Of a stretch of DNA of 64,000 nucleotides, positions 33,775-37,368 are shown piece after piece (the first letter of the stretch is position 1; every line of letters begins with the position of its first letter). The stretch lies in contig JAHVKF010000001.1 in the NCBI GenBank assembly GCA_019800895.1, forward strand, positions 62,001 to 126,000, written 5' to 3'. The DNA comes from Halomonas denitrificans. Its GTDB lineage: Bacteria; Pseudomonadota; Gammaproteobacteria; Xanthomonadales; Wenzhouxiangellaceae. The notes beneath the pieces were generated by a model. The model was not told the DNA's origin and ran no database searches. It saw only the letters and a program-made list of their open reading frames with translations. The position numbers and the translations under genes were made by a program.

Positions 33775-36252
33775 ATGAGCGCACCGGTATTTCTTCCCCT
33801 ACGGCGCTGGCGGGAACTGCTCGTGCTGCTGCTGCTCCCCGCGGTCGGCGTCGCACAGTGGACGAACCACTATCCCAAGCTGGATGACTTCGGCCACCAT
33901 GTCTACCTCGAACAGCACGAGCTGCCGATCCTGGCGCACGGTCCCAGCGACCCCGCTCCCGCGCCCGACGGACGGCGCCTCGCGTTCGCGGCACAGGGGT
34001 GGCTGTGGATCCTCGATCTCGACAGCGGTGTGGCGACGCGATTGACCGATGGCCCCCACCTCGACGCGCGGCCCCGGTGGTCCCCCGACGGCCGGCGACT
34101 GGCCTTCGTGCGCGATAGCGGAGACGCGACCTGGATCGTGGTCCGCGAGATGGCATCCGGAACGGAGACCCGCATCGGCTCGCCCGATGCGATTCACCTG
34201 GACCCGGAGTTCTCGACCGACGGCGCGACCCTGTTCTACACCGCGGCGGTCGACGGCAGCCTGCAGCTGCTCGCGAATCGCCTCGATGCCGGTACCGTCG
34301 ACGTGCTGACCGAACTTCCGCAGGTCGTCCGCAACGCGCGTCGCTTGCCCGACGGCAGCGGACTGCTCTACCTGCACGGCGACGGTGCGCACCGCGTACT
34401 GCGCGAACGGAGCCTCGCCACCGGCTCCGATCGGATCGCGCATGCGGAAACGCTGGCCTACCACCTGACCGCCGACGTGCATCCGACCCGACGACTGATC
34501 GTCTACAGCGCGCCGATCGACAACGACTATCACCTGTGGACCCTGGACCTCGACGATCCCCGCGTCCGCCACCGCCTGACCGGGGGCTCGCCCTACGCGA
34601 CCTCCCCGGCCTTCAGCGCCGACGGCGATCACGTCTACTTCGTCGAACCCGACCAGGACCGCCGACTCCGCTTGATGCGCATCGCGACCTACGGCGGCCC
34701 GCCGTCGCAGGTCGAGATCCGCGACTGGGACTACGGCAGGCCGACCGGCGATCTGGCGGTCGAAGTGCGCGACAGCGACGGCCGACCGACCGCGGCGCGC
34801 GTAGCCATCGAAGGCGATGATGGCCATCCGGTCGCCGTTCCCGACGACGCCACCTTCGTCGACCCTCAGTCCGGCCGGCACTACTTCTACGTGGACGACA
34901 CGGCGCGACTTCGCGTTCCGGCCGGCCGGTACCGGGTGACCGCCGCACGGGGTCCGATGACGCCGCTCATCGAAACCGAAGTCGAGGTCTCCGGCGACGG
35001 CGCGGCCCGCGTCCGGCTCGTGCCGACTCCGATCTGGGACGCGCGAGCCGAAGGCTACGTGGCGGCCGATCACCATGTCCATCTCAACGGCGACGGCCAC
35101 TTTCGCGCCGACCACGGCGACGCGCTTCGCGCGATGGCGGGCGAGGACCTGGACCACCTGGCGCCGCAGTCCTGGAACCGCTGGGAGCGGCGGATCGATG
35201 CCCCGATCCTCGGTCGGACCACGGTCCGCGACGGCCGCGTCGTCCACCAGGGCCAGGAGGTCCGGTCCCACTTCCACGGCCACATCGGCCTGGTCGGCGT
35301 CGATACGCCCTATGCACCCTGGTTCTTCGGGCCTCACAACCCCACCCTCGGCGATCCCGATCGGACCAACGGCGACGTGATCGCGTTCGCCGAGCGGTCC
35401 GCCGCGTTCCCGACCTACGTGCATCCGATCGCCGATGACCGTGATCCCTTCACGCACCTCGAGGACCTGCCGATTCCGCTGGAGCTGGTCTCCGACGGCG
35501 TACTCGCCGAACGGATGGGGCTCGAACTCGTCTGCGCCTGGACCAGCCCGCTGGGCAACGCCGAAGTCTGGTATCGCCTGCTGAACATCGGTCGCCCGAT
35601 CGCGGCGATGTCCGGCACCGATGGCTGGATCGATTTTCATCGCACGCCCGCCGTCGGCACCGGCCGGAACTACCTCCGCGTGGCGCCGGACCACGCAACC
35701 CTGGAGGCCGTGATCGAAGCCGCGGCGGCCGGACGGGGCTTCGTCACCACCGGCCCGGCGCTTGTCTTCGAGCTCGACGACGGTTCAAGGCCGGGGGACG
35801 TGACCTCCAGCGGACGGCACGGCTGGACGGCCACCCTGGCCAGCGCAACGCCGGTCGACGTCGTCGAGCTCGTCGTCAATGGCGATATCGTGGGAACCGC
35901 GAAGGGTGTCGGCGCCGGAGAGACGCGCGAACTGCGCGGCGAGGTCGACCTGCCCGAGGGCGGCTGGGTCGCCATCCGGGCCTACTCGTCCGAAATGCAG
36001 GACGATGCGTGGCCCACCATGCACGCCCGGCCCTTCGCCCACTCGTCGCCGATCTGGATCGGCCGGGTGGGTTCGATCGATCCGCGCGCCCGCACGGCCT
36101 CGGCTCGGGATCTGCTGCGAGCGGTCGAGGCGTCGATCGCTGCGTTCGACGAAGCCTACGGAGACGTGCCGACGCCGAGGCTCGACGCGCGGCTGGACGA
36201 AGCTCGGCTGCGCCTCGAAGCGATGATTCCCGTCGAGGCGACGCCGCGGTAA
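33775..36252 (+). CDS. Secreted TolB-propeller plus CehA/McbA-type PHP protein
   Basis: An 825-residue exported protein. It has a signal peptide (about 1-28, LLVLLLLPAVGVAQ) and a WD40/TolB-like beta-propeller (about 50-320) with PRWSPDGRRLAF and PAFSADGDHVYF repeats. A small beta-sandwich segment (about 325-420) follows. A CehA/McbA-type PHP metallohydrolase domain (about 425-740) begins with the metal-binding AADHHVHLNGDGH and includes HFHGHIGLVG. Phosphoesterase or amidohydrolase activity is plausible but the substrate is unknown. ATG 33775 has GGAAGGAG upstream. A tRNA repeat array begins 48 bp later. Confidence 0.82.
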   Translation: MSAPVFLPLRRWRELLVLLLLPAVGVAQWTNHYPKLDDFGHHVYLEQHELPILAHGPSDPAPAPDGRRLAFAAQGWLWILDLDSGVATRLTDGPHLDARPRWSPDGRRLAFVRDSGDATWIVVREMASGTETRIGSPDAIHLDPEFSTDGATLFYTAAVDGSLQLLANRLDAGTVDVLTELPQVVRNARRLPDGSGLLYLHGDGAHRVLRERSLATGSDRIAHAETLAYHLTADVHPTRRLIVYSAPIDNDYHLWTLDLDDPRVRHRLTGGSPYATSPAFSADGDHVYFVEPDQDRRLRLMRIATYGGPPSQVEIRDWDYGRPTGDLAVEVRDSDGRPTAARVAIEGDDGHPVAVPDDATFVDPQSGRHYFYVDDTARLRVPAGRYRVTAARGPMTPLIETEVEVSGDGAARVRLVPTPIWDARAEGYVAADHHVHLNGDGHFRADHGDALRAMAGEDLDHLAPQSWNRWERRIDAPILGRTTVRDGRVVHQGQEVRSHFHGHIGLVGVDTPYAPWFFGPHNPTLGDPDRTNGDVIAFAERSAAFPTYVHPIADDRDPFTHLEDLPIPLELVSDGVLAERMGLELVCAWTSPLGNAEVWYRLLNIGRPIAAMSGTDGWIDFHRTPAVGTGRNYLRVAPDHATLEAVIEAAAAGRGFVTTGPALVFELDDGSRPGDVTSSGRHGWTATLASATPVDVVELVVNGDIVGTAKGVGAGETRELRGEVDLPEGGWVAIRAYSSEMQDDAWPTMHARPFAHSSPIWIGRVGSIDPRARTASARDLLRAVEASIAAFDEAYGDVPTPRLDARLDEARLRLEAMIPVEATPR

Positions 36253-36300
36253 GTCGGCATCCATTGCGATCGGCTGCGTGATTGCGGGCTCGCCGCTTGA

Positions 36301-36932
36301 TGGCGGAGAGGGAGGGATGACTCGCGCCTGCGGCGCTCGTGAGCTCGCCGCTGCGCGGCTCGGTTCGTACCCTTGGCGCTGCTCGACCGCGTTGCGACCC
36401 GGAGGGCGTGCGTCCTGGGACGTCGGCCTTCGTTCGTCCCTGCAGGATTCGAACCTCCAGCCCGCTTCGTCATCCATGAAAAAACCCCGCGCAAGGCGGG
36501 GCTTTTTCATGGATGGCGGAGAGGGAGGGATGACTCGCGCCTGCGGCGCTCGTGAGCTCGCCGCTGCGCGGCTCGGTTCGAACCCGGGTTCCAATCCGTG
36601 GTCCCCGCTCCCCGATCAACAAAAAACCCCGCTCGAGACGGGGTTTTCTGTTGATGGCGGAGAGGGAGGGATGACTCGCGCTGCGCGCTCGTGAGCTCGC
36701 CGCTGCGCGGCTCGGTTCGAACCCGGGTTCCAATCCGTGGTCCCCGCTCCCCGATCAACAAAAAACCCCGCTCGAGACGGGGTTTTCTGTTGATGGCGGA
36801 GAGGGAGGGATGACTCGCGCTGCGCGCTCGTGAGCTCGCCGCTGCGCGGCTCGGTTCGAACCCGGGTTCCAATCCGTGGTCCCCGCTCCCCGATCAACAA
36901 AAAACCCCGCTCGAGACGGGGTTTTCTGTTGA
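36301..36932 (-). repeat. Tandem array of tRNA-Ser 3' tails with terminators
   Basis: Reading the minus strand from the tRNA-Ser gene, units follow head to tail. Each has a terminator inverted repeat, about 80 bp of spacer and then an exact copy of the last 18 nt of the tRNA including CCA. On the plus strand the tail copies lie at 36301-36318, 36514-36531, 36655-36672 and 36794-36811; the genuine tail is 36933-36950. The spacings are 213, 141, 139 and 139 bp. The two 139-bp units (36655-36793 and 36794-36932) look identical base for base, and the 141-bp unit differs mainly by a 2-bp insertion. The oldest unit diverges and carries another T-arm-like fragment near 36441-36460. The layout resembles the rtT repeats after E. 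coli tyrT. No coding gene is supported here. Confidence 0.9.
36473..36513. terminator. Bidirectional terminator in the oldest repeat unit
   Basis: An 18-bp inverted repeat with one A-C mismatch and a 5-nt loop (GCAAG). It has A runs on one arm and T runs on the other, so it reads as a terminator in both directions. It would also end transcription from the plus-strand gene finishing at 36252. Confidence 0.85.
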
Positions 36933-36933
36933 T
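36893..36933 (-). terminator. Terminator of the tRNA-Ser gene
   Basis: A 17-bp inverted repeat with one mismatch and a 7-nt loop starts exactly at the last base of the tRNA CCA. On the minus strand the hairpin ends in six T. Copies lie at 36754-36794 and 36615-36655 in the repeat units. Confidence 0.88.
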
Positions 36934-37023
36934 GGCGGAGAGGGAGGGATTCGAACCCTCGAACCGGGGTTACCGGTTAACGGTTTTCGAGACCGCCGCA
37001 TTCGACCACTCTGCCACCTCTCC
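36933..37023 (-). tRNA. tRNA-Ser (anticodon CGA)
   Basis: A 91-nt class II tRNA with encoded CCA. The acceptor stem GGAGAGG pairs with CCTCTCC. The anticodon arm GCGGT-CTCGAAA-ACCGT has a 7-nt loop with anticodon CGA, reading UCG. The long variable arm AACCGG-TAACC-CCGGTT is diagnostic of serine, and the T-arm is GAGGG-TTCGAAT-CCCTC. A -10 candidate TACAAT (37038-37033) lies just upstream. Confidence 0.97.
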
Positions 37024-37249
37024 GAAACTTGAATTGTAGTGATCAGATCGCTCTGATCGGCGGTCCGTTGGACCGCGAGACCGCCGCATGGACTGCGCAG
37101 CTCCGCTGCTTGCCCTCCGGGTGGCTTCAACCGCTTCGCGGTCTTCGCATCGAGCTCGCTGCGCTCGGTTCGACCACTCTGCCACCTCTCCGAAACTTGA
37201 CGTAGTGATCAGATCGCTCTGATCGGCGGTCCGTTGGACCGCGAGACCG
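37024..37249 (-). repeat. Duplicated tRNA-Ser upstream region
   Basis: The 60 bp upstream of the tRNA (37024-37083) recurs at 37192-37249 with only small changes. Each copy holds two perfect inverted repeats, GATCAGA-N4-TCTGATC and CGGTCC-GTT-GGACCG. The TACAAT -10 candidate of the real gene is altered to TACGTC in the copy, so the distal promoter is probably dead. Beyond 37250 I see only a TAGAAT -10-like element (37334-37339) before alaX. Confidence 0.85.
37076..37191 (-). pseudogene. Broken 5' half of tRNA-Ser
   Basis: The minus strand from 37191 begins with the first 23 nt of the tRNA-Ser gene, exactly. After a 79-nt insertion (37090-37168) it resumes with the next 14 nt up to the anticodon stem (37089-37076), then runs into the duplicated promoter region. 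The 3' half is missing, so no functional tRNA can form. Confidence 0.85.
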
Positions 37250-37368
37250 GCGAATTGGTGCGTTACCGATCAAGCTCGCCAGTATATCCGATCTGGAGTT
37301 TTCGGTACAGCCCCCTTCCTTGTTTTCCAGCCGTAGAATCCGTGCATCAACCCGCCACGGACCCGCCG

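Follow-up and report, generated by a model that had tools for sequence, protein, structure and literature searches.

Transfer RNA-linked repeats (TLRs), the kind of repeat that includes rtT, were first described in 1978, and Escherichia coli carries 22 of them at ten loci, each ending in 18–19 bp identical to the end of the upstream gene (PMC8144298). A 2021 paper on them still gives no known function and notes that an early starvation claim was withdrawn (PMC8144298). The rRNA-linked repeats rrA, rrB and rrF of E. coli give RNAs that undergo processing, that bind both Hfq and CsrA and whose phenotypes are modest; rrB, linked to 5S, is flanked by two terminators (PMC8144298).

The array described here is an array of TLRs on tRNA-Ser(CGA), and thus of a known kind. 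It lies within a window of 64,000 nucleotides, the whole stretch analysed, from an assembly of Halomonas denitrificans (Wenzhouxiangellaceae; contig JAHVKF010000001.1, positions 62,001 to 126,000). The gene, located with ARAGORN, and the array directly downstream of it are both on the minus strand. Four further exact copies of the 18-nt tail ATCCCTCCCTCTCCGCCA follow along that strand at spacings, from the gene outward, of 139, 139, 141 and 213, and agree with a first-pass annotation made from the letters alone. Two units that looked identical in that annotation have 0 differences (36546–36684 and 36685–36823); the third copy in this register (36824–36962) has 10 differences from the 139-bp units because it runs into the real tRNA. 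The following features were assigned, in order along the minus strand from the gene outward, with the upstream copy last.

36933..37023, minus strand: intact tRNA-Ser(CGA) gene with encoded CCA (ARAGORN; Rfam tRNA, 60.3 bits)
36933-36950, minus strand: the gene's own 18-nt tail (exact ATCCCTCCCTCTCCGCCA)
36893..36933, minus strand: tRNA gene terminator, starting on the last A of CCA (hairpin and T-run)
36864..36892, minus strand: unit 1, piece that mirrors the tRNA 3' half imperfectly (by eye; 28-nt arms of an inverted repeat, complementarity 86%)
36855..36863, minus strand: unit 1, T-arm 5' half GGGTTCGAA (sequence reading)
36812..36854, minus strand: unit 1, T-loop hairpin insert of 43 nt (R1, 34.7 bits)
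36794..36811, minus strand: unit 1, 18-nt tail copy (exact match)
36754..36794, minus strand: unit 1, terminator, the same as the gene's (sequence comparison)
36673..36715, minus strand: unit 2, T-loop hairpin insert of 43 nt (R1, 34.7 bits)
36655..36672, minus strand: unit 2, 18-nt tail copy (exact match)
36615..36655, minus strand: unit 2, terminator, the same as the gene's (sequence comparison)
36532..36576, minus strand: unit 3, T-loop hairpin insert of 45 nt (R1, 35.2 bits)
36514..36531, minus strand: unit 3, 18-nt tail copy (exact match)
36472..36514, minus strand: unit 3, terminator unlike the gene's, with the same junction (sequence comparison)
36319..36363, minus strand: unit 4, hairpin insert of 45 nt behind GGGTACGAA (R1, 27.5 bits)
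36301..36318, minus strand: unit 4, 18-nt tail copy with no terminator (exact match)
37169..37191, minus strand: upstream copy of the tRNA 5' half, up to GGTCGAA of the D-loop (sequence comparison)
37090..37168, minus strand: D-loop hairpin insert of the upstream copy, 79 nt (R1, 48.1 bits, E 2.5e-7)

The tail copies had been taken to be free-standing, and what was missed is that each stands behind a GC-rich hairpin insert of 43–45 nt with the form CCGAGC...GAGTC, which itself follows a T-arm 5' half (GGGTTCGAA in the first three units, GGGTACGAA in the fourth). Each unit in the window is a tRNA 3' end with its T-loop opened between TTCGAA and TCC, and the tails are not bare copies because each is the far side of an opened T-loop. 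Units 1 to 3 run in the order mirror piece (imperfect, judged by eye, and matching the tRNA 3' half), T-arm half, insert, tail and terminator; unit 4 has another spacer in place of the mirror piece. The claim that every tail meets its terminator as the real gene does was borne out for three of the four copies, each terminator starting on the last A of CCA; those of units 1 and 2 are the gene's own and that of unit 3 is a different one with the same junction. It failed for the fourth tail, which has no terminator. Upstream of the gene, at 37090–37191, a copy of the tRNA 5' half has its D-loop interrupted by an insert of similar make. Rfam at gathering thresholds returned the tRNA as its sole match.

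The piece after the terminator that imperfectly mirrors the tRNA 3' half, at 36864–36892 in the window, was also seen at loci L272, L046, L266 and L317. Mirror pieces in several loci have GGATGAGAACCC in place of GGATTCGAACCC, and RtT has the same piece. Neighbouring units may pair into long helices by way of these pieces.

A covariance model of the insert, R1, was built from 30 aligned long inserts, one of which belongs to a different tRNA of the same genome and none to the window; the remaining inserts, among them at least six whose third hairpin is extended, did not enter the model. RNAalifold on the 30 inserts gave 19 pairs, 9 of them changed on both sides. R1 scored 34.7, 34.7, 35.2 and 27.5 bits on the four window units and 48.1 bits on the D-loop insert upstream, and it matched all four E. 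coli K-12 tyrT units with E values of 1.1e-7 to 3.5e-5 in 2.6 kb. A hairpin cassette in common with E. coli TLRs, a mark of membership that we add to the published ones, is therefore present for tyrT. Matches were weak at argVYZQ and lysV (E 0.018, 0.019, 0.14 and 0.72), and R1 found no match in the rrnB 5S repeat of E. coli K-12, where a CCCGGAGGG hairpin stands ahead of the repeated 5S end. Tail copies were present at tyrT/V, argVYZQ and lysV among the nine E. coli K-12 stretches examined.

Scanned permissively, the Rfam model RF00391 (RtT) matched 5 of 13 related stretches at 39.5–44.2 bits, under its gathering score of 45: L332 at 44.2, L335 at 42.4, L317 at 41.9 twice over the whole model, L333 at 40.4 and 32.6, and L334 at 39.5. 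Three of the five aligned along the whole model or nearly so, and E. coli lysV itself passes at 47.3 bits. RtT was not matched in L088, L145, L132 and L023 (E 0.5), in L021, L022, L272 and L083 (E 0.05), or in window positions 36200–37300 (E 1). Since the window units fall below the gathering score they are not filed as RF00391, though they are TLRs by the definition of PMC8144298. The RtT consensus shows these same parts, and in identical order: mirror GGAUGAGAACC, GGUUCGA, GAGCGAAGCGAG, CCCGAAGGG, GAGUAAUCC and tail. The resemblance to rtT that the first-pass annotation had drawn is thus more than an analogy, given that a model holding no window sequences joins the window to tyrT and that RtT reaches relatives. 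The contrast it drew, a terminator in every unit as against rtT, does not hold, since the units of E. coli lysV each carry the tRNA terminator and rrB lies between two terminators (PMC8144298). The account of TLRs as T-loop inserts was not found in the literature searched; two works cited in PMC8144298 (Rudd 1999; Egan and Landy 1978) lie outside that scope, hence no claim is made that the account is unpublished.

Arrays elsewhere in the same genome were first located by searching it with one window unit. Insert-plus-tail copies occur at 5 of the 43 tRNA genes scanned there (Ser CGA, Ser GGA, Glu TTC, Thr CGT and Arg ACG); Ser TGA has inserted units with degenerate tails, and Gln CTG has a more degenerate array (R1 E 0.6). 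With the best 150 of 7822 first-look candidates scored, R1 gave 32 matches in this genome, of which tRNA arrays account for the best 16 (E up to 0.048). Next in rank, the 17th match, C2:271094 (L280:1500-1560, genome G000; E 0.051), is not at a tRNA and has a similar motif, possibly as a non-tRNA copy or by chance; further weak matches are also away from tRNAs. Across eight other genomes, six of which had matches among the best 150 candidates scored per genome, 51 of 54 matches (E up to 0.07) fell on stretches with an ARAGORN tRNA, and the other three were two units beside a 5'-truncated tRNA-Thr (L268) and one contig end (L277). Seven more genomes all had R1 matches, with tRNA proximity checked for part of them. 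Among 369 Gammaproteobacteria, with the best 11 candidates scored per genome, R1 matched in five genomes, our own and four from three other families. Four of the five new loci are at tRNA copies (Ser GCT, Gln TTG and Ser TGA twice) and one is near a contig end with no tRNA; at L332 an upstream tRNA copy has both loops interrupted. The family of genome G302 had R1 matches in 4 of 23 genomes. Exclusiveness to tRNA loops is not proven by these scans and non-tRNA copies could be missed, because only the best 150 first-look candidates per genome (11 in the 369-genome scan) were scored.

The 14-mer GGTTCGAACCGAGC was present in 17 of 25 genomes of Wenzhouxiangellaceae, our own included, and in 2 of 16 genomes from other families of the order, where ARAGORN found no tRNA on the 4.1-kb stretches concerned; the reversed 14-mer, used as a control, occurred at most once per strand and genome. 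From the fetched loci, 96 distinct inserts were gathered at Ser, Thr, Arg, Glu, Cys and Val tRNAs and at one doubtful Phe (L035). Flanks of Ser(GCT) differ from genome to genome, and several draft contigs terminate within such arrays. The two proteins that flank Ser(CGA) yielded no usable syntenic match by which empty and filled sites could be compared.

Three loci depart from the common layout. At L104:1864-2222 (G002:C38) a tRNA-Ser(GCT) has one D-loop insert and two head-to-tail T-loop inserts; an intact tRNA-Ser(GCT) was not found in the G002 assembly (85% complete), which may be explained by assembly collapse or by a missing part of the genome. At L268:1460-1930 (G015:C1:3055760-3056230) the 5' half of a tRNA-Thr is replaced, and its 3' half is kept together with two TLR-like units that have a different left end. 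At L108:4000-5000 (G004:C33) at least four degenerate units with tRNA-Arg(ACG)-like tails lie about 4 kb from that gene, with no tRNA of their own; the L108 arrays are 2.7–3.6 kb apart, and the ORFs of L108 were read by eye with a possible cargo-carrying version in mind.

An exact-pattern scan of a genome collection returned 100 stretches, all of which were scored for tRNA and strand and 80 of which were listed by title; beyond Wenzhouxiangellaceae, the stretches listed include Gemmatimonadota, with tandem units behind tRNA-Ser, and Bacteroidales, with a full copy of tRNA-Cys or tRNA-Val that carries a T-loop insert and stands beside an intact copy. The cassette motif CCGAGC...GAGCTC is at the same T-loop position in the three phyla. 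Within 1 kb of a tRNA were 91 of the 128 pattern occurrences, and 90 of these 91 were on the strand of the tRNA; the odd one, in a Bradyrhizobium stretch, was taken for a chance match. The remaining 37 comprise 19 within 300 bases of a stretch edge and 18 elsewhere, and these 18 are chance matches or remnants. Viral contigs gave a single matching stretch, which had no tRNA, and in plasmids the best matches spanned only ~90–110 bases at the tRNA itself. To what is described for TLRs the present analysis adds the T-loop insert at one position in Wenzhouxiangellaceae, other Gammaproteobacteria, Gemmatimonadota and Bacteroidales, the fixed strand, and three further observations: inserts alike across the tRNAs of one genome, C(GNA)G loops, and lysV alleles of 0, 1 or 2 units.

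Relatedness was tested on 52 inserts from the genomes given G numbers here. The nearest relative was an insert at another tRNA of the same genome in 18 of 52 cases (4.1 expected at random), one at the same tRNA of another genome in 10 (6.1 expected), and neither in 24 (41.8 expected). Inserts at Thr(TGT) and at Ser(CGA) in genome G020 are the same at all but 1–2 of 40 positions, with flanks that are unlike. Cassettes in head-to-tail arrangement share their ends, ...AA|CCGAGC.... Hairpin loops were analysed in 93 of the 96 inserts, the doubtful Phe candidate and two inserts with N being dropped. These contained 197 hairpins, 140 of them triloops, and 102 of the 140 read C(GNA)G; 50 mononucleotide shuffles gave a mean of 1.5 and a maximum of 5, and the opposite strand gave 2. 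Of 43 tetraloops 25 read C(GNNA)G, 11 as GNRA and 14 as GNYA, so there is no preference for GNRA. In DNA, loops of the GNA and GNNA types form very stable minihairpins when they sit on G-C stems (PMC4686876). G-T pairs made up 1.8% (21/1163) of pairs in insert stems and 4.5% (23/515) in tRNA stems, a weak comparison in that the hairpin finder penalises G-T.

Unit number varies in E. coli. At lysV (L344, L348, L349 and L350) different strains have alleles with 0 (L348, L349), 1 (K-12) and 2 (L350) exact 156-bp units, each unit including the tRNA terminator, and recombination between repeats could have removed the units where there are 0. Annotations of "RtT sRNA" at tyrT number 0 to 5 among 40 listed of 5391 records, and an rtT length difference of 175 bp is reported between two Paratyphi A strains (PMC2658671).

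Our preferred reading, to which we give about even chances, is that the compact multi-hairpin cassette is an element, small and without coding sequence, which spreads in DNA form among tRNA loops and is moved by an enzyme encoded elsewhere. Spread as DNA is favoured because inserts are alike within a genome, cassettes stand head to tail, loops read C(GNA)G and G-T pairs are few, the last a weak point. The R1 matches in the window and at tyrT, their concentration at tRNAs, the common strand and the lysV unit numbers also count in favour of the reading. What the data show is the architecture, the kinship with E. coli TLRs, the place of the insert in the loop, the strand bias, the likeness of inserts at different tRNAs of a genome and the E. 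coli unit-number alleles; mobility, a single-stranded intermediate and a trans-acting enzyme are inferred. The cassette would enter tRNA loops at GAA|T sites, probably in the form of single-stranded DNA that is folded, by means of an enzyme supplied in trans, and cells would retain it where a neighbouring tRNA copy stays intact. Direct repeats of tail and terminator would then permit exact duplication or loss of units, and small RNAs could arise if transcription ran on beyond terminator 1 and the product were cleaved at the tail copies; such processing is shown for the E. coli rRNA-linked repeats only (PMC8144298). Against spread, no fresh insertion at an empty site was seen among the loci compared, and units may have been lost from the 0-unit alleles; the likeness of inserts within a genome could also come from gene conversion, and covariation in the insert would also fit an RNA function. 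The absence of Y1 transposases and reverse transcriptases from several carriers, the motif-like R1 match away from a tRNA at C2:271094 and the lack of an RtT match in the window units at E 1 weigh on the same side.

Two candidates for the moving activity were considered. A RAYT/Y1 transposase, a possible mover, is present in our own genome, G000, and gave no match in the carriers G001, G006 and G010, all drafts. Reverse transcription primed by a tRNA 3' end is disfavoured, RVT_1 being found in 5 of 18 carriers and absent from our own genome; the 18-nt tail has the length of a primer-binding site of reverse transcription.

It is rather unlikely, in our judgement, that TLRs are kept instead for an RNA function, in which enzymes that process tRNA or 5S RNA would cut the read-through transcript at its tail copy, and the structured small RNA so made would bind a regulator of the CsrA or Hfq type and couple it to tRNA synthesis. 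The compensatory changes in 9 of 19 consensus pairs and the fixed strand of inserts relative to the tRNA speak for this, as do the processed, Hfq- and CsrA-binding rrA, rrB and rrF RNAs, although the source that describes them reports modest phenotypes only and gives no known TLR function (PMC8144298). Copies also lie upstream of tRNAs and in D-loops, however, unit number falls to zero in some E. coli, and the loop types C(GNA)G and C(GNNA)G, among which GNRA is not preferred, suit DNA better.

That there is no dedicated element at all, and that DNA synthesis made fold-back and template-switch errors at the hairpins of tRNAs and terminators, which slippage between direct repeats then amplified, we regard as unlikely. 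Such errors would leave imperfect mirrors of the tRNA 3' half behind the terminator, as in several loci, and perfect stems with few G-T pairs, and slippage agrees with the exact gain or loss of units at lysV. Yet independent errors could hardly place one motif, CCGAGC...GAGCTC, at one T-loop position in three phyla, or yield R1 matches at tRNAs of unrelated families.

Elements that integrate at tRNA genes break the gene in the T-loop, and the displaced 3' end comes to stand at their far side. The first-pass annotation had raised repeated integration and excision at a tRNA att site. A larger element that came and went in this way would leave tandem scars, and the T-loop break with tRNA 3' end and terminator on its far side is in keeping with it. 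This is nevertheless highly improbable here: as that annotation also noted, no integrase is nearby (no integrase domain among the 10 proteins tested, 28.6–48.3 kb of the window), the units are gene-free and below 200 bp, the same cassette is at many different tRNAs, and there are D-loop and upstream copies. A recombinase may, for its part, act in trans. The chance that the array is an assembly artefact, as the two identical units and the draft contigs ending in arrays might suggest, is negligible, since the same architecture recurs in other genomes, including E. coli K-12 and the one-contig assemblies G015, G017 and G022, a recurrence that also speaks against chance.

Beyond the spread of the cassette as DNA, we suggest tentatively that TLRs, E. 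coli rtT included, may form one old family of tiny hairpin elements entering tRNA genes as single-stranded DNA at the T-loop (and the D-loop) in at least three phyla. The tail copy would be the 3' side of the interrupted T-loop, and the repeated tail would be 18–19 nt long because a TLR is an insert in the T-loop. In the boldest form of this suggestion some tRNA genes live with the insert, and that in the tRNA-Ser(GCT) of G002 would need removal at the RNA level, like an intron. A view of TLRs as T-loop and D-loop cassettes yields a search model that finds them outside Enterobacterales, and it divides the matter of their purpose into two that can be tested: by which enzyme a hairpin comes to be inserted in a tRNA loop, and whether the RNA acts; the lysV alleles with 0, 1 and 2 units are natural comparisons in E. 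coli.

Set beside known systems, the array is like an integrase att site at a tRNA in its T-loop break and the displaced 3' end on the far side, and differs in lacking a nearby integrase (10 proteins) or cargo, in its tandem units below 200 bp and in its D-loop copies. REP and BIME sequences with RAYT transposases are likewise small, GC-rich, gene-free palindromes, thought to move as single-stranded hairpins (PMC2817692, PMC3733652). REPs, in contrast, have a GTAG or CGTC tag and are numerous and mostly extragenic, whereas the window inserts, read by eye, contain neither tag and have their copies in tRNA loops; instead of many dispersed extragenic copies, the 16 best of 32 R1 matches, with the best 150 of 7822 candidates scored, were at tRNA arrays. 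From the E. coli TLRs the window units differ in being on a tRNA-Ser in Wenzhouxiangellaceae, in a shorter insert of two hairpins without CCCGAAGGG, and in the upstream 5'-half copy with its D-loop insert, which the account of TLRs in PMC8144298, as far as consulted, does not describe. With those TLRs (rtT behind tyrT/tyrV, and the repeats at argVYZQ, lysV and three 5S genes) the array has in common the 18–19-bp copy of the gene's 3' end, tandem units on the same strand, and the succession of mirror piece, GGTTCGA, hairpins (with CCCGAAGGG in E. coli) and AATCC or ATCC with the tail, and with lysV it also has in common terminators between the units.
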